A stretch of 48,890 nucleotides of DNA from the IMG/VR virus record IMGVR_UViG_3300046168_000056, positions 1 to 48,890 of that record. The stretch is one strand, 5' to 3'. The stretch is from a virus. The position numbers were made by a program, and so were the translations under genes. The first letter of the stretch is position 1. Each line of letters begins with the position of its first letter. This document shows, piece after piece, positions 2,522 to 48,774 of this stretch. Under the pieces are notes generated by a model that worked only from the letters and a program-made list of their open reading frames with translations, ran no database searches and was not told the DNA's origin.

Positions 2522-3071
2522 CTATATAAGGGTTTTGACCAAGTCAAGCATCATAGAAGATTCCTCACAAACCTCTAATGTACAACGATTTCCAGTAGAT
2601 TTTGTTTTAGACACCTTTTTTTGTTCTAAAAGCTCCCTAATTCGTCTTCTTATTGTAGAATCTGTGAACCCATCCTCTTTCAATCTAGCAATTAAATCTT
2701 TCTGATCTAATGGCTTTTTCTCACTCTTTAAGTGACCCATAATATAAGGTGTAAGATCATCTTTTTTACGCCCTCCAGCACCTTTAAGTTTTTTCGGATC
2801 AGCCCCACCTTTTCTAATAAATAATGGGAAGTCCATCTGTACGACAAATGGCTCAGGACTAAGATAATTTCTTACGGTACTTTCTACGGTAAAACAATCA
2901 TCATCTTCATGTTCAGTCATGACTAATATTGTATCAGGACTTCTTGCAAAAACACCCTGAGCCTGATATACGATCAATAGAACTTTTCGCAGCTTGATTG
3001 CCCTTAGAGAAGTGTGCCGCAAATACAACTGCCGCACCTGTTTTTATTGCTATTTCCTCCATCTCATTCAT
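2522..3071 (-). CDS. primase-helicase, C-terminal part (separated by frameshifts)
   Basis: Continuation of the RecA/RepA-like helicase that begins at 4576. From the ATG at 3071 the frame reads MNEMEEIAIKTGAAVVFAAH, the expected segment after the Walker B strand. It then switches frame at the GGG run at 2955-2957 and continues as GVFARSPDTILV down to the stop at 2522. Removing one G at 2955-2957 and adding one A near 3071 restores a single protein. The last 100 residues hold a basic linker (KKLKGAGGRKKDD) and a winged-helix-like segment (DLIARLKEDGFTDSTIRRRI). Taken as a separate gene it would start within an ATGA overlap with the upstream piece. Confidence 0.75.
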
Positions 3072-4576
3072 AATGAATTAATATCTCCAGCCGCATTCTC
3101 ATCTCTATTACCTAGTGTCTTATAGATAGGATCAAGTATCACGAGGCTAAAGTTTCCATTAGCCATCAACTTAATAAACTTAGGAGCAATTGCTTCTAGA
3201 GCCTGAGCTTTGCCACGAAGGTTCCATATCATGAGATTCTCACTTGGTAATTTTATACCTTTTTTGTCACAAATCATGTTAATTCTTTCCCTAAAGAAGT
3301 AATCATGAATCTCAAAGTTGATATATAATACCTTTCCGGCATGAGTATTTTGCCCCCAAAAGGGAGTTCCATTCGCAACTGATATAGCAAGATCGAGTAG
3401 TGTAAAACTCTTAAATGTCTTACTACCTCCACCAAGAACCATTGATAATTGCCTATTTAATATGCCCTCTACGATTACAGGAGGCTCATGAAGTTCAGCA
3501 GTCTCAAGCTCCACCTGATTCATGATCGGTGGGAAGTCATCATTTATATAATCAACCCAAGAGTCCCATGTTTTTAGACCTGAATCAACTTGTAATAATA
3601 GCTGTTTTTTTCCTGTGTCTCCCCTCGTACAACCGGGAAGTCTAGTCAGCCTTGATGGATCTTTATTTTTCTCATCAACCTCATAGGCTGAGAAGTGATC
3701 CATAAGCATGGCTACCCTTTCGGTATACTCCTGCTCATTGCGAGCATCTACACGAACCATTGCATGCAGACTTCTATTTCCCGAATATGATATCGTGGAA
3801 CATGGGAGCTTTGACTCCTTCAATAGTTGCCATTGTTGTTTTAAGGAAATCGTATCAAACTCAATAAGTGCATACTTAAATTGTTTGACATTCCTTTTAA
3901 CTCGTCCAGCTTTCGCATCAATGAGTGGATTGATTGATATAAACACGCCGCATTGTTGTGATCCATTCTCATCAACTATAGTAAATACATCACCAATTTC
4001 ACCTTCACCTATCTTCTCTAACCACTTATCTCTAGTTAGGGTCAAACCTTTACCAATTGGCTTCTCTTGACCATCTGAATCAATGTCAGCCCTGACAATA
4101 CATAGGAAGTCATCTGGGTCATAGTTCTCCTCAAGATATAAATATGTAGAGCCTTCTAAGGGTTCAGGTAGCTCATCACTTTCATCAAGTGTATAGATTT
4201 TTTCTTTGAGTTTTGGCTCTTCCTCTTTAGCTTGAAATTCATACTTCGCATTACCGATCTTCAAGGGAGAACTACCATTTCCATTTGATTGTGGCTCGAT
4301 TGGATCTCTCGCTGGTCTACTATAGCATGATCTGATTGTAGCTCTAGCCTCAGACTCGGAAAGCCCATCCAAAGACGCCCGCGCCGAACATAACTGAAAA
4401 ACTTCAACTTCAGGAATTTTTGCATCCCTTAATTGAATTGCCGCAGCTAGTAACTCATCATTTCTAGAACCCTCACTCGCGCCATGTCTTAAGTATTCTA
4501 GGGTACGTGTTGGGATAAGATAGTCCGACCTGACTCTTCCCAAACTTTCTACTATTCTTCTTTCTGCTTGAGCCAT
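3068..4576 (-). CDS. primase-helicase (AEP-like primase plus RepA-like ATPase), N-terminal and central part
   Basis: Likely primes and unwinds phage DNA during replication. Residues 20-90 match the small helical domain found at the start of many phage primase-helicases (RTLEYLRHGASEGSRNDELL). Residues 235-330 look like an archaeo-eukaryotic primase core: IEFD at 238-241, SGNRSLHA at 265-272 and NKDPSRLTRLPGC at 304-316. The ATPase domain has Walker A GGGSKTFKS at 382-390 and Walker B FSLVILD at 476-482. The gene breaks at TTATGA (3068-3073), where one missing A ends the frame; the helicase continues in the next entry. A strong GGAGG lies about seven bases before the ATG. The start overlaps the resolvase-like gene by 25 bases. 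Confidence 0.85.
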   Translation of the reverse strand: MAQAERRIVESLGRVRSDYLIPTRTLEYLRHGASEGSRNDELLAAAIQLRDAKIPEVEVFQLCSARASLDGLSESEARATIRSCYSRPARDPIEPQSNGNGSSPLKIGNAKYEFQAKEEEPKLKEKIYTLDESDELPEPLEGSTYLYLEENYDPDDFLCIVRADIDSDGQEKPIGKGLTLTRDKWLEKIGEGEIGDVFTIVDENGSQQCGVFISINPLIDAKAGRVKRNVKQFKYALIEFDTISLKQQWQLLKESKLPCSTISYSGNRSLHAMVRVDARNEQEYTERVAMLMDHFSAYEVDEKNKDPSRLTRLPGCTRGDTGKKQLLLQVDSGLKTWDSWVDYINDDFPPIMNQVELETAELHEPPVIVEGILNRQLSMVLGGGSKTFKSFTLLDLAISVANGTPFWGQNTHAGKVLYINFEIHDYFFRERINMICDKKGIKLPSENLMIWNLRGKAQALEAIAPKFIKLMANGNFSLVILDPIYKTLGNRDENAAGDINSL

Positions 4577-4914
4577 TGCGACACCTCCATAAAGTAATAA
4601 AAAGTTTTCTGAGATAGAACAAAAAATGGATCTTTTCTATCATCTTTTGCGACTACAATATCATTACCACCTTCTCTATCTAGTACATCGTAGATGGTCT
4701 TGAACCCCCTTTTTCTCCGAATTGCTTCCACTTCCAGTTTCGGTAAGGGGAAGTTTTTTCTAATGGGAGAATCTCTATTTGGGGATATCCAAATATCACC
4801 ACTTGTATTTTTTGTCCCTGATAAGGGAGCTTTTTTTGCCTCAAGTCCCAATTGTTGTAGCTCATGTATAATCTCTCTTTCAAACTCAGCTCCCTTCGCT
4901 CTTGGACTTGTCAT
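4552..4914 (-). CDS. PD-(D/E)XK nuclease, resolvase-like
   Basis: Small basic 120-residue protein with the layout of phage Holliday-junction-resolvase-like PD-(D/E)XK nucleases: an N-terminal KGAEFEREI helix (E10, E12, E14), a GD at 39-40 and an acidic strand LEVEA at 60-64. The usual lysine of the ExK motif is not obvious here, so catalytic detail is uncertain. It sits between an SSB-like protein and the primase-helicase, which fits processing of recombination or replication junctions. Its ATG overlaps the upstream stop as ATGA at 4911-4914. A second, RuvC-like candidate lies at 16109. Confidence 0.65.
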   Translation of the reverse strand: MTSPRAKGAEFEREIIHELQQLGLEAKKAPLSGTKNTSGDIWISPNRDSPIRKNFPLPKLEVEAIRRKRGFKTIYDVLDREGGNDIVVAKDDRKDPFFVLSQKTFYYFMEVSQWLKQKEE

Positions 4915-5159
4915 CTTTCTTTACCCCCTTCTACTAAATCTTTGGCTTCTTGCTCTAATTCAGCCATTAATTTTTTTAAATGAACTTTCTTCATTTCTGG
5001 GTTGAGCTTCGCAAGTAGTGCTTCGGTTTCCCTTTGGTTCTGAAGTTTAGCTTTTTTGGAAACTAACAATCCATATATAAATGCTATAACAATTAATATT
5101 GTAATAAACATACCCATTCCAGCGAATATGTCGTATATAATTTCTAATGATTCTTTCAT
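4911..5159 (-). CDS. small membrane protein with coiled-coil tail
   Basis: Not recognised by family. From the ATG at 5159 it has about 82 residues: one N-terminal transmembrane helix (MGMFITILIVIAFIYGLLV) followed by a charged coiled coil (KKAKLQNQRETEALLAKLNP). The frame is open further upstream to 5231, but that extension would cross the 3' spacer of the SSB-like gene, so the shorter start is preferred. Orientation predicts the coiled coil in the cytoplasm. Its place among recombination genes is unexplained. Confidence 0.6.
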   Translation of the reverse strand: MKESLEIIYDIFAGMGMFITILIVIAFIYGLLVSKKAKLQNQRETEALLAKLNPEMKKVHLKKLMAELEQEAKDLVEGGKER

Positions 5160-5255
5160 AATTATTTTTCTCTTGATGTTATATAAAGTCCCGCTAGGAG
5201 GAAGATGGCAATTAATGCCATCTCCTCCCACGAGATAGTAAGATGTTCTATAAAA

Positions 5256-5744
5256 TCAAAAAGGAACATCATCCTCGTCCTCATCCGATGTTAAATCGAA
5301 ATCATCTATAGGACTTGGTTTATCCATTTTCTCAACAGCAGGAGCTGGTAGCTCACTTGGAACAATCCAATTAGCAACTCTGTTACTCTTTTTACCATTG
5401 TACTCATGCACAACGATTTCAGCTTTAGCGACTCCTCCAATAATATACTTAAGCATAAACTCATCATCAATCTTTACGCTCATTCCAGCTTTTGGAAGTG
5501 GTAGTTTCTTAGATGCACTAAATGCTTTAAGAATGATATCCATCTTCCACATAGCTTTCTCTGTGAAGATAATGTTTTCATAAGCAATTGGACCTTCTTT
5601 AATTTGTATATGAAGAGTAATCTTGTCGTTATTATTTGAGGTGAATCCCGTTTCAAACTTTACAGCTTTAACAGCATAAGTGCCGGGTTCTACGAGAGAG
5701 GGAGCGCCCTCTGAATCATTATATGTATAATTTATATTAGTCAT
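5256..5744 (-). CDS. single-stranded DNA-binding protein-like
   Basis: A 162-residue protein with an OB-fold-like beta-rich body (TYAVKAVKFETGF; KITLHIQIKEGP; KAEIVVHEYNGKKSNRVANW) and a C-terminal acidic tail ending DEDEDDVPF. That tail is characteristic of SSB proteins, which use it to recruit partners. It resembles phage DUF669-type proteins that replace SSB. It lies between the Cas4-like nuclease and the primase-helicase operon and overlaps the nuclease stop by 8 bases. It probably coats ssDNA for RecT-mediated annealing and replication. Confidence 0.75.
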   Translation of the reverse strand: MTNINYTYNDSEGAPSLVEPGTYAVKAVKFETGFTSNNNDKITLHIQIKEGPIAYENIIFTEKAMWKMDIILKAFSASKKLPLPKAGMSVKIDDEFMLKYIIGGVAKAEIVVHEYNGKKSNRVANWIVPSELPAPAVEKMDKPSPIDDFDLTSDEDEDDVPF

Positions 5745-6717
5745 TGGTTTGTATTAGTTTTTTTATGTTAGGTTTTTTGTCGATTGGTAAAAGATCTACT
5801 ATTGCTTTACCATAAACATTTTCGAGTTTGGATATTGAAAGACTTACGCATTCTAGAAAACGCTCAATGCTACCTTCTCCCGAAGCTAAGTCAAGTGTTT
5901 CATATGCCATCTTAATATCTGTTATGAATCGCTGTCCATTTTGTTCCTTCCATTTGTAATTTGGAATCTCTTCAAAATCTTTTGTGCGATTCATTATTTC
6001 CTTACCCCACTTCTCCATAGCTTTTGCGATTGGAATAAGAGTTGCGATTCGATTTGCCTGTTCTTCATTTATCTCTCCTGTCAAAAGATAATCTTCAACC
6101 TCTAATTCTTTCTTAGAAAGTTTAGTAGCAAATTCAAGTACATCAGGACAATTTAGAATTTTATCACACCACGCACAATATTCATTTGGGCTTCGTGGTG
6201 GGTTCGGTTGACTTGTTTTGATAAGTAAATTATCAATCAATGTTTTTGCCTGTAATCTTCCAATATTATAAGTGACATGCTTGCGATACTTAGAGTATAG
6301 AATGTGGCACTCGACCTCATCTATTTCAAAGTCCATATCCATAATAGCTAATGCATATGCACACATTTGCATATAGTAAGGTCTTTCTTCACCTGTCTTT
6401 AGATCGAAAAGCCTTTGTTTATTTACGACGTCGGCTGTACCAAAATAATGATCCCCATATGAGACTTTCATTTCAGTATTAATATCATGTGAGGCATCAA
6501 CATTTATATTGACTATATCACAAGCCCAATCAATCCCAGCGATTTCATATTCACTAAACTCGAAATCTGTTACAGGTTCTCCATTGATTTTCTTTTCAAA
6601 TAAAACGTGTAAATCATTTCCCTTCTGAGCCGCATCTCCAGCGGGAGCTGATTTGAATGCTGAACACTTTTCTTTCGCTGGGAACGAACTTGGAGAGTTC
6701 TCAGGATGGTGCTCCAT
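5737..6717 (-). CDS. PD-(D/E)XK exonuclease, Cas4/RecB-like, with putative Fe-S cysteines
   Basis: Probable recombination exonuclease partner of RecT. Catalytic signatures: H37 in GNDLHVLF, GTADVV at 93-98 (D96), FDLKTG at 104-109 (D105, K107) and the QMCAYALA helix around 117-124. Cysteines C181, C184 and C190 (EYCAWCDKILNC), together with C18 near the N-terminus, are arranged like the iron-sulfur cluster of Cas4/AddB-type nucleases. The family also resembles DUF2800 phage proteins. It shares a one-base overlap with recT upstream, so the two are probably co-translated. A C-terminal extension (about 200-326) is of unknown role. Confidence 0.8.
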   Translation of the reverse strand: MEHHPENSPSSFPAKEKCSAFKSAPAGDAAQKGNDLHVLFEKKINGEPVTDFEFSEYEIAGIDWACDIVNINVDASHDINTEMKVSYGDHYFGTADVVNKQRLFDLKTGEERPYYMQMCAYALAIMDMDFEIDEVECHILYSKYRKHVTYNIGRLQAKTLIDNLLIKTSQPNPPRSPNEYCAWCDKILNCPDVLEFATKLSKKELEVEDYLLTGEINEEQANRIATLIPIAKAMEKWGKEIMNRTKDFEEIPNYKWKEQNGQRFITDIKMAYETLDLASGEGSIERFLECVSLSISKLENVYGKAIVDLLPIDKKPNIKKLIQTND

Positions 6718-7496
6718 TAATCAAGCCCCCCTGTAGCCTTCATTGCTGTAAGTAAAAATGTATCAAAATTATCTGCGGCTCTTTTGATCGTTTCCAGAGG
6801 CATCCCTTTGGGCCACTTCTCATGAATGTAAGCCTGAATTTTTTCTTTCTCCAAATCAGATCTTTCATTAACTAACCCCGCGAATTGTGCTTGAAATGAA
6901 ACCTGATTAATTTCCTTTCCTTCTTTAATATTAGTGGGAATTTCATCAGGATCATAGATTCCAGCCGCAATTTCAGGTACATACATCCTTAATGCTTTTG
7001 TAGCACATCTTGCTCGCAACATTGCTCCCGGTTGTTTTATCCAATTATCCTTATTTGTAAGCCCAAGTTTTTTAGCCTCTTCAATTGTGAAGCTAACTGG
7101 CGATTTCTTTCTACCATTATGCTTGAGAACCAATGTGGCTTTTTTGCCATCCTCTCCATCTGCTGTCCAATCAAAATCTCCACCATGAAGTTGCCTAAAC
7201 TCAGCCAACATAACCGCAGCTTTCTTTGTTGGGCGACCCTGTATGATGTCATATTTCTGAGCGAAGTCCAATGGAGTAATTTTTTCAGCCATACAGGTAA
7301 ATGCAATAATTACACCCTGTTCAACTTTGGAACAATTATTAAATCCTGATCTAGCTATTATATTACCAAACGCCTCAATAGCTGTCATTTGTGCGTTAAG
7401 GTCATTGAACACAGCCCCTCGCTCTGTTTGTATATTGGGGTTAGTGACCATATCGGGAATAGGATCAGGCTCTTTTTTTACAATTTGATTTTTCAT
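6717..7496 (-). CDS. recT: RecT-family single-strand annealing protein
   Basis: Promotes annealing and strand exchange of ssDNA during phage recombination. The central region matches the RecT family: KITPLDFAQKYDIIQGRPTK (about residues 73-92), MLAEFRQLHGGDFDW, and the IKQPGAMLRARCATKALR segment followed by VPEIAAGIYDPDE. At 259 residues it is a normal length. It is the first of the recombination genes (recT, exonuclease, SSB, resolvase-like), and a palindrome at 7568-7588 lies upstream of its start and may be an operator. Confidence 0.85.
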   Translation of the reverse strand: MKNQIVKKEPDPIPDMVTNPNIQTERGAVFNDLNAQMTAIEAFGNIIARSGFNNCSKVEQGVIIAFTCMAEKITPLDFAQKYDIIQGRPTKKAAVMLAEFRQLHGGDFDWTADGEDGKKATLVLKHNGRKKSPVSFTIEEAKKLGLTNKDNWIKQPGAMLRARCATKALRMYVPEIAAGIYDPDEIPTNIKEGKEINQVSFQAQFAGLVNERSDLEKEKIQAYIHEKWPKGMPLETIKRAADNFDTFLLTAMKATGGLD

Positions 7497-43967: not shown

Positions 43968-44139
43968 AATATTATTGCTAGACAAATGCGCAAAAAGAAT
44001 GAGAGAAATCATTGAATTGTCAGGTCAAGAACCCAACAAACAGATGGTAATGGCTCTATCTCTTGTAATTATGGAAGGTGATATTGTTATCATGCATTCA
44101 GACACAAGGAAAATGAATATCATACACTTAGACAAATGA
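43960..44139 (+). CDS. small protein, 59 residues
   Basis: Not recognised. From the ATG at 43960: MSRILLLDKCAKRMREIIEL, a helical start, then a short strand-rich end (GDIVIMHSDTRKMNIIHLDK). It overlaps its neighbours on both sides (8 and 4 bases). Confidence 0.5.
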   Translation: MSRILLLDKCAKRMREIIELSGQEPNKQMVMALSLVIMEGDIVIMHSDTRKMNIIHLDK

Positions 44140-44657
44140 ATATATTCGTACTACATGAATCTCCACGAATCAGTGCGCTACATATGTGCGACAAACACAT
44201 ACCCAAAATGTGTGTTGAATCAGCACAGATGTTAGCTTCCGCATTGTTGCGTCATGGCGCAAGTGTAAGTGACATGCCATTAACAAAGAAAGGAACTCCA
44301 TATAGGGGTGGATATCAATGGCATCCCTGCACTCGTTGGGTCGGAGACTCAAGAGAAAACTATGTGTGGCTACTAGCTCATGCTCTAGCATTGTGTGAAG
44401 AGTTCAAGTGGAGATATGGAAAAACACATGCCTGTTATGATCCAATAAATCATATGTGGAACATGGGAGATGTTGTAAAAAGCAAAGGTCAAACGCCGTT
44501 CGCGCAAGCGATGCCCATTAAATACAAAAACTCATGCGCCATAACAGCATACAGAAATTACTATCTAGCAGAAAAGAAAAGTTTTGCTACATGGAATAAA
44601 GGAAGACCTACACCATTGTGGTGGATAACTAAAGCATCAAGGAGGGATGCAAAATGA
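44136..44657 (+). CDS. phage protein of the 'pyrimidine-dimer glycosylase-like' group
   Basis: 173 residues with a pattern seen widely in environmental phages: MNIFVLHESPRISALHMCDK, HIPKMCVESAQMLASALL, WHPCTRWVGDSRENYVWLLA, TPFAQAMPIKYK and TAYRNYYLAEKKSFATW. Databases often label relatives as possible pyrimidine-dimer DNA glycosylases, but that role is not demonstrated here. Conserved His, Cys, Asp and Trp residues suggest an enzyme. It overlaps both neighbours. Confidence 0.6.
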   Translation: MNIFVLHESPRISALHMCDKHIPKMCVESAQMLASALLRHGASVSDMPLTKKGTPYRGGYQWHPCTRWVGDSRENYVWLLAHALALCEEFKWRYGKTHACYDPINHMWNMGDVVKSKGQTPFAQAMPIKYKNSCAITAYRNYYLAEKKSFATWNKGRPTPLWWITKASRRDAK

Positions 44658-44854
44658 CAAGAAAACAACACAGAATACGAAAAAAGCTCGACTTGTTTCG
44701 CATCTTTGAGCAAGAGCTTGAAGATGAGCTTCGTAGAGGGCTTACAAACCAACACAACAAACGTGTCGAAATAACTAAAAATATCGACACATCATACAGC
44801 AAACGTTTAGAGCGTGAATGCTTCACCTCTGAACACCCAAATCACAACAAATAG
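44654..44854 (+). CDS. small basic helical protein
   Basis: Not recognised. 66 residues, MTRKQHRIRKKLDLFRIFEQ then ELEDELRRGL; one charged helix and a disordered tail. It lies just ahead of the ATPase and overlaps the preceding gene by ATGA at 44654-44657. Confidence 0.5.
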   Translation: MTRKQHRIRKKLDLFRIFEQELEDELRRGLTNQHNKRVEITKNIDTSYSKRLERECFTSEHPNHNK

Positions 44855-44866
44855 AAAACCAAATAT

Positions 44867-46150
44867 ATGAAAATTGAATTAGATCCAAATGCTCTCGTCA
44901 AGAGTGATGCATTCCAACAAGCCTACAGGGATACAGAAGCAAAATGTAATGCCTATGTCACCAAGAAGCTTGAAGCTGTACACGATAAATTAAGTAGTGC
45001 TAGTTCTGAGGGTATGCATGAAGAGGTACAGAAAACGCTACTCGGTAGTGACTTCATACAAGCATTCGCGGACATTGTTGTTGCAAAAGCATCAAGTGCT
45101 GGAATATCATTACCAAAACTGAAAAGCTCTGTGAAAAGAAAGCTTCGTGGTAGTGCTGCATCAAAAGCAATCAACACCTATTGCAGACCAAATCAGGAAA
45201 AGCTTGAAGGCAAAAGAGCTGTCGCATTGTTCGGTGACAAAGGTTCAGGCAAGACACATGAAGCCTATCATGAATCCTTATCCCTGTATGATGGTGAGGA
45301 AAATGTAACTCTGATTGATTGTCATGCTGACATTATGCCCGAACAGTTGTTTGGTCATCCATGTGCCGAGGGTGATGGAACTCCCGCACTGGGGTGGCGC
45401 GATGGTGCTGTGACTGAAGCCTTCAGAAGGCAAATCAAAACAGGCAAACCACAGGTAATCATACTTGATGAGTTTCTGCAATTACCTAGTACATCACTAA
45501 ACTCACTCAAGTCTTTACTTGGTGGCTTAGGTGATGATTATGTATGCACGACAGGTAAGCCTACAGGAAAGATTGGAACAGCTCGTGGAGTTGAAAAACT
45601 CAAATGCCCAATAGCAAGTATAGGGTTTATCATGACGTCAAACATTGGTGGTCGCTATGAAGTCAGAGATATTGATGATGCAATGCGTTCAAGGCTTAAA
45701 ATTGTTCACATGGATTGCAAGATCACAGACATCAAGCGTGTATTGAAGCCAATTATAGAGCAACGACAAGATGCGTTTGGTTGGTCTGATGAAGCTAGTA
45801 ATTGGCTAATGTCTGCACTTACAAGTATTCATACAGACACCAAGAGGTTCTGTAACACACATGAACTTGAATCCTATGCCGGCACTCGTGAACTAATGGG
45901 TATACTCACGCAGCTTGAGCATCCTGCAGAAATATTGAATGTGTTTGACGAAAGATCAGTTCTTTGCGAAAGACCATACTTTGTTGCTGTGGATGATTTC
46001 GGTAGACCTAACGCTGACCAGAAGCAAAAATTCAAAACCATCGGCGACTCCATGAAGTCTAAAGCTAAGGCATTCAAGAATGATGAGGCGCAAACTGACG
46101 ATGACAAATCTAAATTCGATGCTCTCTTGAAGCATGTCATCATTGGATGA
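44867..46150 (+). CDS. cobS: CobS/MoxR-like AAA+ ATPase
   Basis: Hexamer-forming ATPase predicted to drive a CobT/VWA partner. Walker A GDKGSGKT at 123-130, Walker B QVIILDEF at 196-203, sensor-1 IMTSN at 255-259, and DIDDAMRSRL at 268-277 with arginine-finger candidates R274 and R276. The N-terminal 110 residues form a helical domain. CobS proper works with CobT to insert cobalt into the corrin ring; phage copies have been reported as auxiliary genes, but cobalt chelation is unproven here. It overlaps the downstream CobT-like gene by 4 bases. Confidence 0.8.
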   Translation: MKIELDPNALVKSDAFQQAYRDTEAKCNAYVTKKLEAVHDKLSSASSEGMHEEVQKTLLGSDFIQAFADIVVAKASSAGISLPKLKSSVKRKLRGSAASKAINTYCRPNQEKLEGKRAVALFGDKGSGKTHEAYHESLSLYDGEENVTLIDCHADIMPEQLFGHPCAEGDGTPALGWRDGAVTEAFRRQIKTGKPQVIILDEFLQLPSTSLNSLKSLLGGLGDDYVCTTGKPTGKIGTARGVEKLKCPIASIGFIMTSNIGGRYEVRDIDDAMRSRLKIVHMDCKITDIKRVLKPIIEQRQDAFGWSDEASNWLMSALTSIHTDTKRFCNTHELESYAGTRELMGILTQLEHPAEILNVFDERSVLCERPYFVAVDDFGRPNADQKQKFKTIGDSMKSKAKAFKNDEAQTDDDKSKFDALLKHVIIG

Positions 46151-47529
46151 GCAATGCAGTTAACAATCTATGGAGAGAAATAATCAAAAACGCATACATG
46201 AAAAAATCAAAACACCCAATACAGGCACTTGAATCACACTTCAAGTTGTCTTCTTCTATATATAGTATGGCTACGCCCAATGATGGGCTGAAATACTCAT
46301 ATAACTTCGATCATCAAGTAGGCACAGCATCATGGGCATGGAGTCCAAGTGGTCACAATGTTACATTGTATGACTACCTTCCAACTATGGATTCTGTTGC
46401 ATTCACATCCGCGAGCAAGGGCAGGCAAGCCCGAATGATTCGTGAGTATGGTGAATCAATGCTAGTTCACGAAATCAAAGGTCATGGCTCATTATCAACG
46501 AGGGATTTAGCCTCGATTGGTAAGTGGTGCAATGATCACGCAATACATCCTGAGCTTCTTAACATTATGGAGGATGCTCGCATAGAAGCTGCGCTTAGTG
46601 CTAAAAGACCAATGGACACGAAGAGTAAAGGCTCTTGGATTAATCACTTGGGCGCAGATGTTACTATACCCAAGAAGTCACATGGTGGCGACTATGGATG
46701 GAGGAAAGCATACTGGCACAGATACAACACATGCCCAAGCGTAACCGAAACCCCTGAAGGTTTACTTGCTGCGTTCATTTGGGCTGAGAAGATTAGGGGG
46801 CTTGAACATGAGATCGCAAAAGCTTGGATGGATAAGTACTTACCTTCCGTTGGTGCTTCATTCACACCTGACCCCAAAGTTTGGGGTACTCACAGACCTC
46901 ATCGCATGTACAAGTTTGTATATGATATCTTCATGCAGTGTCGTAAGTGGAAAAAATACAGGACTACCGAATCGCTTAAACCACTCATGATGCGTTGGAA
47001 ATGCTTCTTCCCAAGACCATTAGAGGGCGTAAGGCATGCTGGTGGCAAAGATGTAATAATCAAGATGATTGGTGAAGGCATTGCGTTATCAGATCCGCAT
47101 GGCAATCCTATTGACGAGAAGTACATGGATCAGCTTATACCAACTCCATCAGGTGGAACACCTATGCCTCCTGTTAGCGAGAGTGGTGAACCTAAACCGA
47201 ATCCACCCGAAGAGGGTAAGGGTGAGTCTAATGATGGCGAACCTTTACCTGATGAGACGCCCAAGGAGGAATCTGAACCACCTGAAGCACCTAAAGCTGT
47301 GGAAGAACACGAGAAACCAAAAGATGCATTGTCTGAAGAAAGTGGTGAAACTAAGCATGACTCACAGAGTGATGAACTCGGAGATGGCGCAGATTCACAA
47401 CTCAAGTATGAAACTCATGTTGTTGAGAATCCAATTCATGTTGAGTTACCCTCTTGGGTGAATGAATTCACAAAGCGCGATGCTGACTTTGGTACAGGTA
47501 ATGAGAAACTTCCAGCCGATTTCTTCTGA
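46147..47529 (+). CDS. CobT-like N-terminal protein with metallopeptidase-like motif and acidic linker
   Basis: 460 residues. LVHEIKGHG at 106-114 and LLNIMEDARIEAAL at 137-150 match the conserved core of CobT-type and VWA-partner proteins (a zinc-peptidase-like HE...EDxRIE arrangement). The His spacing is HEIKGH, one residue longer than the canonical HExxH, so hydrolytic activity is doubtful. Residues about 330-430 are a long Pro/Glu/Ser-rich acidic linker (PEEGKGESNDGEPLPDETPK), the part that precedes the VWA domain in cellular CobT. Here the protein ends and the VWA domain is the next gene, joined by a TGATG overlap. Confidence 0.7.
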   Translation: MSNAVNNLWREIIKNAYMKKSKHPIQALESHFKLSSSIYSMATPNDGLKYSYNFDHQVGTASWAWSPSGHNVTLYDYLPTMDSVAFTSASKGRQARMIREYGESMLVHEIKGHGSLSTRDLASIGKWCNDHAIHPELLNIMEDARIEAALSAKRPMDTKSKGSWINHLGADVTIPKKSHGGDYGWRKAYWHRYNTCPSVTETPEGLLAAFIWAEKIRGLEHEIAKAWMDKYLPSVGASFTPDPKVWGTHRPHRMYKFVYDIFMQCRKWKKYRTTESLKPLMMRWKCFFPRPLEGVRHAGGKDVIIKMIGEGIALSDPHGNPIDEKYMDQLIPTPSGGTPMPPVSESGEPKPNPPEEGKGESNDGEPLPDETPKEESEPPEAPKAVEEHEKPKDALSEESGETKHDSQSDELGDGADSQLKYETHVVENPIHVELPSWVNEFTKRDADFGTGNEKLPADFF

Positions 47530-48254
47530 TGAGCTATCGTATAGAAATTAGGAACGGTCAAATCTACTGCTCAGGCTCGCCTGCGCCATACGAGAAGGCT
47601 GATTTTTGGAAGTCCGAAGGTTCATTCATAGACACCACAGCAAAAGTTTTCTCACGTGTACTCGTTGGTAAACAAACCTCAAATGATCGTAAAGGGCATT
47701 GGGGTAGTGGTAGTCTACACCTCAATAACATAGCCAAATGTAACGCATCTGAAGGTTACTTTAGATCAAAACGCAAGCATGGTGGTAAGCCTCACGTATT
47801 CGTAATGATGGATGCGTCAGGGTCTATGGGTGGAGGTCACTTCGTTCATGGATTACCAATAATGGCTGCGTTCAATGAGCTTGCTGTACAAAACAAAATA
47901 CGTTTTGACTTTGTACTTACAGGTAATCACAAATCATGGTGGAACAAGAGTAAGCCAATCAAAAGAGGTTTGTGGGGTCTAATGGATTGTCGCGCAGGGT
48001 GTGAATCATTCGCGTACAATCTCCCAAGGTACAAGAAAATATGGAAGACAGCTTCCACATTCATATGCTACACAGATGGCGCAATTACAGATGGTGACAT
48101 TTCTCCATCACTTTGGCGCAAAGAAGGCTTAACGTGTATTGGCGCTTACATTGGAGATCCAAGTCAGCGAAAACAAATGAACAAGTGGTTTGACCACACA
48201 GTATCTGCAAGGAACAAAAGCTTACTTGCATCCGAACTAATAAAACTAATATAA
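47529..48254 (+). CDS. VWA-domain protein (CobT C-terminal-like)
   Basis: 241 residues. HVFVMMDASGSMGGG has the MIDAS metal site DxSxS (D95, S97, S99), and CYTDGAITDGD supplies D183 of the late MIDAS loop. In CobT and other MoxR partners this domain binds the AAA+ ring and the substrate. It is a separate gene from the CobT-like N-terminal part but overlaps it by one base, so both are made together. Residues 1-85 are a family-unknown N-terminal region. Confidence 0.75.
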   Translation: MSYRIEIRNGQIYCSGSPAPYEKADFWKSEGSFIDTTAKVFSRVLVGKQTSNDRKGHWGSGSLHLNNIAKCNASEGYFRSKRKHGGKPHVFVMMDASGSMGGGHFVHGLPIMAAFNELAVQNKIRFDFVLTGNHKSWWNKSKPIKRGLWGLMDCRAGCESFAYNLPRYKKIWKTASTFICYTDGAITDGDISPSLWRKEGLTCIGAYIGDPSQRKQMNKWFDHTVSARNKSLLASELIKLI

Positions 48255-48255
48255 C

Positions 48256-48774
48256 ATGAAAAATAAAGACCCATACAAAACAGGGGATGCATACAGCATC
48301 CCCTTCAACCCAAACGTCGAAGCTGATGGTTTTGAGCACAAGCAATGCGACGCAATTGAAATAAATAAAATCCTCAAAGACATTAACTCGCATAGCTTCT
48401 TGCAAGCCGACATGAACAAAAGAGCAGATTGGGCTTTTAGAAATGTTAAGCTCGCTGTAGAAATGGCAAAGCGTAATGTGTTCGGTGGAGACACAGATGA
48501 AGAGAAAGATTGTAGGAATGAACTCACACTTGCTATGCTTTCACACGAACGCACATTCAAGATGCTTGAGCAATTTGCCAAATTATTTGGTAAAATGAAA
48601 GATCACATCGACTGCCTACAAGATTGTGTAGGTGCAAGACTGACTGAGCTTGAAGATATGCCTGATGACTTCAGAAGTGAAAACTTCAATGAAGAATTAC
48701 AGCAAGTGCATTTGACGCAATCTTTGTTGGGATACATATGGTGTGGAATGGGAAAGGAAGATAAAGATGGCTGA
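48256..48774 (+). CDS. hypothetical protein in the CobS/CobT-like operon
   Basis: Not recognised. 172 residues, mostly helical, acidic (VFGGDTDEEKDCRNELTLAM; LTELEDMPDDFRSENFNEEL) with four Cys. It starts just after the VWA stop and overlaps the next gene by 8 bases, so it may belong to the module. It could be a substrate or adaptor, but nothing shows this. Confidence 0.5.
   Translation: MKNKDPYKTGDAYSIPFNPNVEADGFEHKQCDAIEINKILKDINSHSFLQADMNKRADWAFRNVKLAVEMAKRNVFGGDTDEEKDCRNELTLAMLSHERTFKMLEQFAKLFGKMKDHIDCLQDCVGARLTELEDMPDDFRSENFNEELQQVHLTQSLLGYIWCGMGKEDKDG

Follow-up and report, generated by a model that had tools for sequence, protein, structure and literature searches.

CobS and CobT often appear in lists of viral vitamin B12 genes. 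They belong to the core genome of T4-like cyanophages (PMC8651126), and the locus described here raises the question whether a viral module composed of a MoxR/CobS-like AAA+ ATPase, a CobT-like protein and a free-standing VWA protein is a cobaltochelatase or a machine of another kind, and whether the division of its CobT-like part into two genes is real. The window, i.e. the whole stretch of DNA analysed, belongs to an environmental phage; it is an IMG/VR record with a length of 48,890 bases, probably a fragment, in which terminase, portal, primase, RecT-like and exonuclease genes are found as well. We consider it rather probable that this divided member of the mobile AAA+/CobT-like family remodels proteins as a MoxR/VWA machine whose substrate domain is encoded separately, and is not a cobaltochelatase.

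Gene content and division of the CobT-like part

The initial annotation had placed an AAA+ gene, a CobT-like gene and a VWA gene at this locus, which was confirmed by open reading frames, motifs and profiles (Table 1). The Walker A and B motifs of the AAA+ protein (further motifs: sensor TSN at residue 257, RSRL at 274, TREL at 340) and the MIDAS of the VWA protein are intact, the latter being complete with D95-x-S-x-S, T131 and D183 (TDG at 182). An AAA+ protein with Walker A/B, sensor and arginine finger is encoded beside a MIDAS-bearing VWA gene, the combination found in MoxR/VWA pairs. The reading frames of genes 1 and 2 overlap in the tetranucleotide ATGA, those of genes 2 and 3 in a single base (the A of TGATG); the former overlap is uncertain, because in the closest relative (L002, see below) the start of gene 2 corresponds to M18. 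The TGATG junction probably couples translation of the VWA gene to that of gene 2.

Table 1. Module genes, motifs and flanking genes (positions in the window; residue numbers refer to the respective protein).
Feature	Position	Strand	Basis or remark
Small gene (66 aa) just upstream of the module	44654..44854	+	kept beside the module in L002, 45% identity
Gene 1, MoxR/CobS-like AAA+ ATPase (427 aa)	44867..46150	+	Pfam AAA_5, E 1.8e-9; hhalign 96.7% to mobile CobS-like set
Walker A GDKGSGKT in AAA+ protein (residue 123)	45233..45256	+	
Walker B VIILDE in AAA+ protein (residue 197)	45455..45472	+	
Gene 2, CobT-like N-half (460 aa; alternative start 46198 by L002 comparison)	46147..47529	+	hhalign 88.9% to mobile CobT-like N-domains
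HEIKGH (H-E-x3-H) in gene 2 (residue 108)	46468..46485	+	HEQKGH in L002
NIMEDARIE in gene 2 (residue 139)	46561..46587	+	N-x2-ED-x-RIE, common to mobile CobT-like proteins
Acidic Pro/Glu-rich tail of gene 2 (about 331-430), counterpart of the CobT linker	47137..47436	+	composition
TGATG stop/start junction of genes 2 and 3	47527..47531	+	kept in L002
Gene 3, free-standing VWA protein (241 aa)	47529..48254	+	hhalign 95.9% to mobile CobT-like VWA domains
MIDAS DASGSM in VWA protein (residue 95)	47811..47828	+	
Downstream gene P0004 (172 aa)	48256..48774	+	kept beside the module in L002, 40% identity

The proposed division after the acidic linker was corroborated by two further IMG/VR sequences, L002 and L003, which differ by one mismatch in 14.3 kb (14,315 bases) and therefore count as one independent relative. 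All three genes are present in them (AAA+ 74%, N-half 53% and VWA 80% identity to the window), and the division falls at the identical place, with the TGATG junction and a conserved end NEKLPADFF before the stop. An assembly error, for which a fused gene in relatives would have spoken, is thus ruled out as the source of the split, as L002/L003 come from other IMG/VR datasets and are divided likewise. Fusion of genes 2 and 3 by frameshifting is unlikely: ahead of its ATG, gene 3 has an open frame of just 9-10 codons, and a canonical slippery heptamer was not seen. The AAA+ and VWA genes gave dN/dS values far under 1 (dS being near saturation). From the conserved split, the closed frame of gene 3 and dN far below dS it follows that the division is a fixed feature of this lineage. 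Motif-pattern searches of IMG/VR revealed no further close relatives beyond L002/L003 and one more distant relative with the fused form.

As the initial annotation had it, CobT is fused in cellular genomes; this is also true of most phages and plasmids, and divided forms exist besides the present one. The cobT of the halovirus HHTV-2 has been reported as split (PMC8651126): its HExxH/ED-bearing N-half is encoded by gene 2 and its VWA part by gene 3, so that separate N-half and VWA genes are shared with the window, whereas in HHTV-2 a gap lies between the halves, the AAA+ gene is located further off and HExxH is kept. Another divided form was found in this analysis in Pseudoalteromonas phage vB_Psh_XG4 (PP712099, deposited without annotation), in which the VWA gene matches positions 343-692 of phrog_459 and the next gene positions 19-268; we know of no prior description of its swapped halves. 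In XG4 the two halves, VWA before N-half, precede the CobS-like gene, behind which lie a sliding clamp and a clamp loader. Its N-half is of the HExxH/ED type. XG4 shares with the window the location of N-half and VWA domain in separate genes, but differs in keeping HExxH and in the order VWA, N-half, AAA+ as opposed to AAA+, N-half, VWA with TGATG. In view of these exceptions (the window, L002, HHTV-2, XG4), N/VWA fusion is not strictly defining for the mobile family, and the three different layouts by themselves suggest that the division arose more than once. Such apparently repeated splits suggest in turn that substrate domain and VWA adaptor can work as separate proteins, in which case each would be easy to express and assay alone.

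Affiliation of the three proteins and the HExxxH motif

Single-sequence searches of Pfam and NCBIfam gave no match for genes 2 and 3 and only AAA_5 for gene 1; the Pfam CobT family (PF06213) was matched neither by gene 2 nor elsewhere in the window. No match was obtained by tblastn of the window proteins against phage records, the mobile relatives being too far in sequence, nor for the AAA+ protein in a scan of cellular genomes, and profile searches of the PDB produced at best weak dynein/AAA hits in the case of the AAA+ protein and no informative ones in that of the other two. PHROG hints were weak (phage CobS phrog_249, E 0.13; 'peptidase' phrog_459, E 0.25; phage CobT phrog_17276, E 0.03). 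Sets of CobST-like sequences were therefore gathered for hhalign: a mobile set of 17 to 19 diverse sequences from phages (cyanophages, haloviruses, and phages of Vibrio, Rhizobium, Pseudomonas, Gordonia, Tsukamurella and Stenotrophomonas), from Enterobacterial and Acinetobacter phage-plasmids, MOBH plasmids and genomic islands, and cellular sets of 28 CobT and 21 CobS sequences.

With two-member profiles (window plus L002) as queries, all three proteins were aligned with the mobile sets at the high values listed in Table 1, as compared with 1.7% (N-half), 15.3% (VWA) and 0.8% (AAA+) for the cellular CobT/CobS sets, a contrast that is indicative and not a phylogeny because the cellular sets cover less diversity. 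Reversed-sequence controls remained below 1%, and none of 100 column permutations of the query reached the observed score against the mobile sets for any of the proteins (permutation maxima versus observed scores: 20 versus 48 for the N-half, 24 versus 62 for VWA, 22.7 versus 78.9 for AAA+). On this profile evidence, all three proteins are assigned to the phage/plasmid 'CobST/peptidase' family and not to cellular CobST, and the module represents a genuine, though divergent and split, form of this widespread, poorly understood family, whose members are annotated as CobS with CobT, 'peptidase' or 'porphyrin biosynthesis'. The designation of gene 2 as CobT-like consequently does not hold in the sense of the Pfam CobT family, but does so for the phage/plasmid CobT-like branch; mobile and cellular CobT-like N-domains are themselves homologous (hhalign 97.6%). 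AlphaFold models calculated from the two-sequence alignments reached a pLDDT of 37, too low for any structural interpretation.

The CobS/'peptidase' pair of T4-like cyanophages (S-PM2, P-SSM2; PHROG 249 and 459) and other phage/plasmid CobST resemble the window in their adjacent or nearby AAA+ and CobT-like genes, N-x2-ED-x-RIE, acidic linker and VWA domain with MIDAS, with a significant profile match in all three parts; their CobT-like protein, however, is a single fused chain with HExxH, in contrast to two genes and HExxxH in the window. Cellular CobS/CobT have the general architecture, the H-[D/N/E]-x3-H spacing and an E-x-(A)R-x-E motif in common with the window, and differ from it in the PF06213 match, in D/N instead of E and in the fusion of CobT.

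The histidine motif of gene 2 combines features of both groups. Most mobile relatives contain HExxH followed by an N-x2-ED-x-RIE-like motif. In cellular CobT the spacing H-[DN]-x3-H was found in 28/28 loci, with a histidine at i+5 in 27, counts that are somewhat biased as the loci were caught by a motif pattern demanding a similar layout. In the profile alignment of the mobile and cellular groups, a one-residue gap falls exactly in the HExxH/H-x4-H motif. HEIKGH of the window and HEQKGH of L002 thereby possess the Glu of the mobile group (E, not D/N, at position 2) and the spacing of the cellular group, i.e. one residue more than HExxH. The motif had been described as off the canonical spacing, which applies with respect to zinc peptidases and to most mobile members, but not to cellular CobT. 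HExxH is not recognisable in at least three other mobile members (an Acinetobacter phage-plasmid, Pseudomonas phage phiK7B1 and Stenotrophomonas phage ANB28) and is hence not strictly defining for the mobile family. The CobT-like proteins of these three elements otherwise belong to the family.

Candidate functions and genomic neighbourhood

For tailed viruses it has been proposed that viral CobST borrow the CobN of the host for cobalamin synthesis (PMC8651126). Applied to the present module, CobST and host CobN would insert cobalt and raise the cobalamin supply, e.g. for a class II ribonucleotide reductase. Besides the published proposal, the homology of the mobile CobT-like family to cellular CobT, the H-x4-H spacing common to the window and cellular CobT, and the fact that some mobile members pass the Pfam CobT cut-off (99 bits in an E. 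coli phage-plasmid) are in its favour, as is the occurrence of a CobN/ChlH-family protein in 28/33 CobT-positive Pseudomonadota genomes (the 5/33 genomes with no match include some that may be incomplete). In the control genome of Caulobacter vibrioides, the CobT family was matched and the CobN family was not, so that a cell may keep CobT without CobN. Against cobalt insertion stand the missing Pfam CobT match and the poor alignment of the cellular profiles, and also the distribution of CobN: the family was detected in 0/22 virus and plasmid records, the window record (a fragment) gave no match, and the E. coli control genome was without CobN, yet plasmids of E. coli (as well as Klebsiella and IncC plasmids) carry the CobST-like module. 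Cobalamin genes were not recognised among the window proteins scanned (part of the set). That CobN may be present in the host, and that the window is a fragment, counts against a non-cobalamin reading; on balance cobalt insertion is regarded as improbable, and the reservation of the initial annotation on this point was borne out for the family.

The modules of other elements are frequently located near replication or recombination genes: gp46/gp45/gp44 in S-PM2, the sliding clamp and clamp loader in XG4, dnaE in Klebsiella and E. coli phage-plasmids, ssb/bet/exo in IncC pR148, recT/exo in pJZ27-cfr, and ligase and Pol III alpha in phiK7B1; this linkage was read from a few records with no background rate set beside it. 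Early regions of phages are rich in replication and recombination genes. In the window itself, the module has no replication gene next to it apart from a putative DNA glycosylase, which is missing at this place from L002. Together with the lack of CobN on the elements and in the E. coli control, these frequent neighbours make the viral B12 label doubtful.

An ATP-driven metalloprotease, in which the AAA+/VWA pair would feed a zincin-like peptidase formed by the N-half, appears equally improbable. HExxH with the downstream ED-x-R-I-E-like motif in most mobile relatives and the peptidase annotation of cyanophage members would be in line with it. In zincins, the zinc ligands of HExxH are usually located at i and i+4, to which H-E-x3-H in the window and L002 does not fit; cellular CobT has D or N in place of the catalytic Glu, the N-half gave no match to a peptidase family in Pfam, and the mobile members named above lack a recognisable HExxH. 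As the window lineage combines cellular-type spacing with the mobile-type Glu, it is doubtful that it works by a zinc peptidase mechanism. A role in defence or counter-defence, which the initial annotation had held equally open, is very unlikely. It would draw on the occurrence of MoxR-vWA pairs in bacterial ternary conflict systems (PMC7159879) and on a very weak match of P0004 to Pfam bpX0 (E 0.075, below cut-off), a domain of MoxR-vWA-beta-propeller ternary systems; this match is absent from the L002 homologue of P0004 and is probably due to chance. None of the proteins had a convincing match in PADLOC (the best hit, E 0.0074, covers some 50 residues in the AAA+ region), and neither an effector nor a third conserved component was seen.

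A protein-remodelling machine is therefore the reading we prefer. By architecture, the module is likened to the MoxR pairs NorQ/NorD and RavA/ViaA, which equally consist of an AAA+ protein and a VWA protein with MIDAS; they possess different N-domains, and their targets are known. In NorQ/NorD, the VWA domain was placed in the centre of the AAA+ ring by cryo-EM plus AlphaFold, the MIDAS of NorD was proposed to contact the target, and the N-domain of NorD, connected to VWA by a disordered linker, was proposed to give specificity (PMC9976466). This N-domain and linker resemble the arrangement that is split in the window (PMC9976466), where the gene cut falls in the equivalent of the disordered linker. 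By analogy, the AAA+ protein would form a ring to which the small VWA protein binds, the metal site of its MIDAS gripping a target that is chosen by the N-half; the latter, with only its acidic tail or co-assembly to connect it, would supply recognition and might bind a metal as well. ATP hydrolysis would then pull on or remodel the target, probably a phage or host protein complex, perhaps of DNA replication or recombination, and not CobN. The lower identity of the N-half between the window and L002, compared with the AAA+ and VWA proteins, fits a motor/adaptor core that is conserved and a recognition part that changes faster. A wider extrapolation, which we regard as rather doubtful, is that the phage/plasmid 'CobST' family as a whole is a general remodelling machine for replication/recombination complexes of mobile elements, with no cobalt chelatase among its members, and that its N-domain, a zincin-like fold now worn, has become a substrate adaptor, the window lineage showing a CobT-like spacing.

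Several further observations concern the surroundings of the module. The primase, exonuclease and RecT-like annealing genes of the window (3068-7496) are situated at the left end of the fragment on the minus strand, opposite to the module. Directly upstream of the module, the gene at 44136-44657 is similar to pyrimidine-dimer DNA glycosylases (PF03013, E 2e-7; phrog_624, E 5e-56); its place is taken in L002 by a 442-aa gene with no PHROG match. A/C-rich leaders without Shine-Dalgarno sequence precede several genes of the block (window: 44837-44866 and 48226-48255; L002: upstream of 8001, 9300 and 11341) and may bear on the translation signals of the host; unlike these, the small gene at 44654 is preceded by a clear AAGGAGGG.
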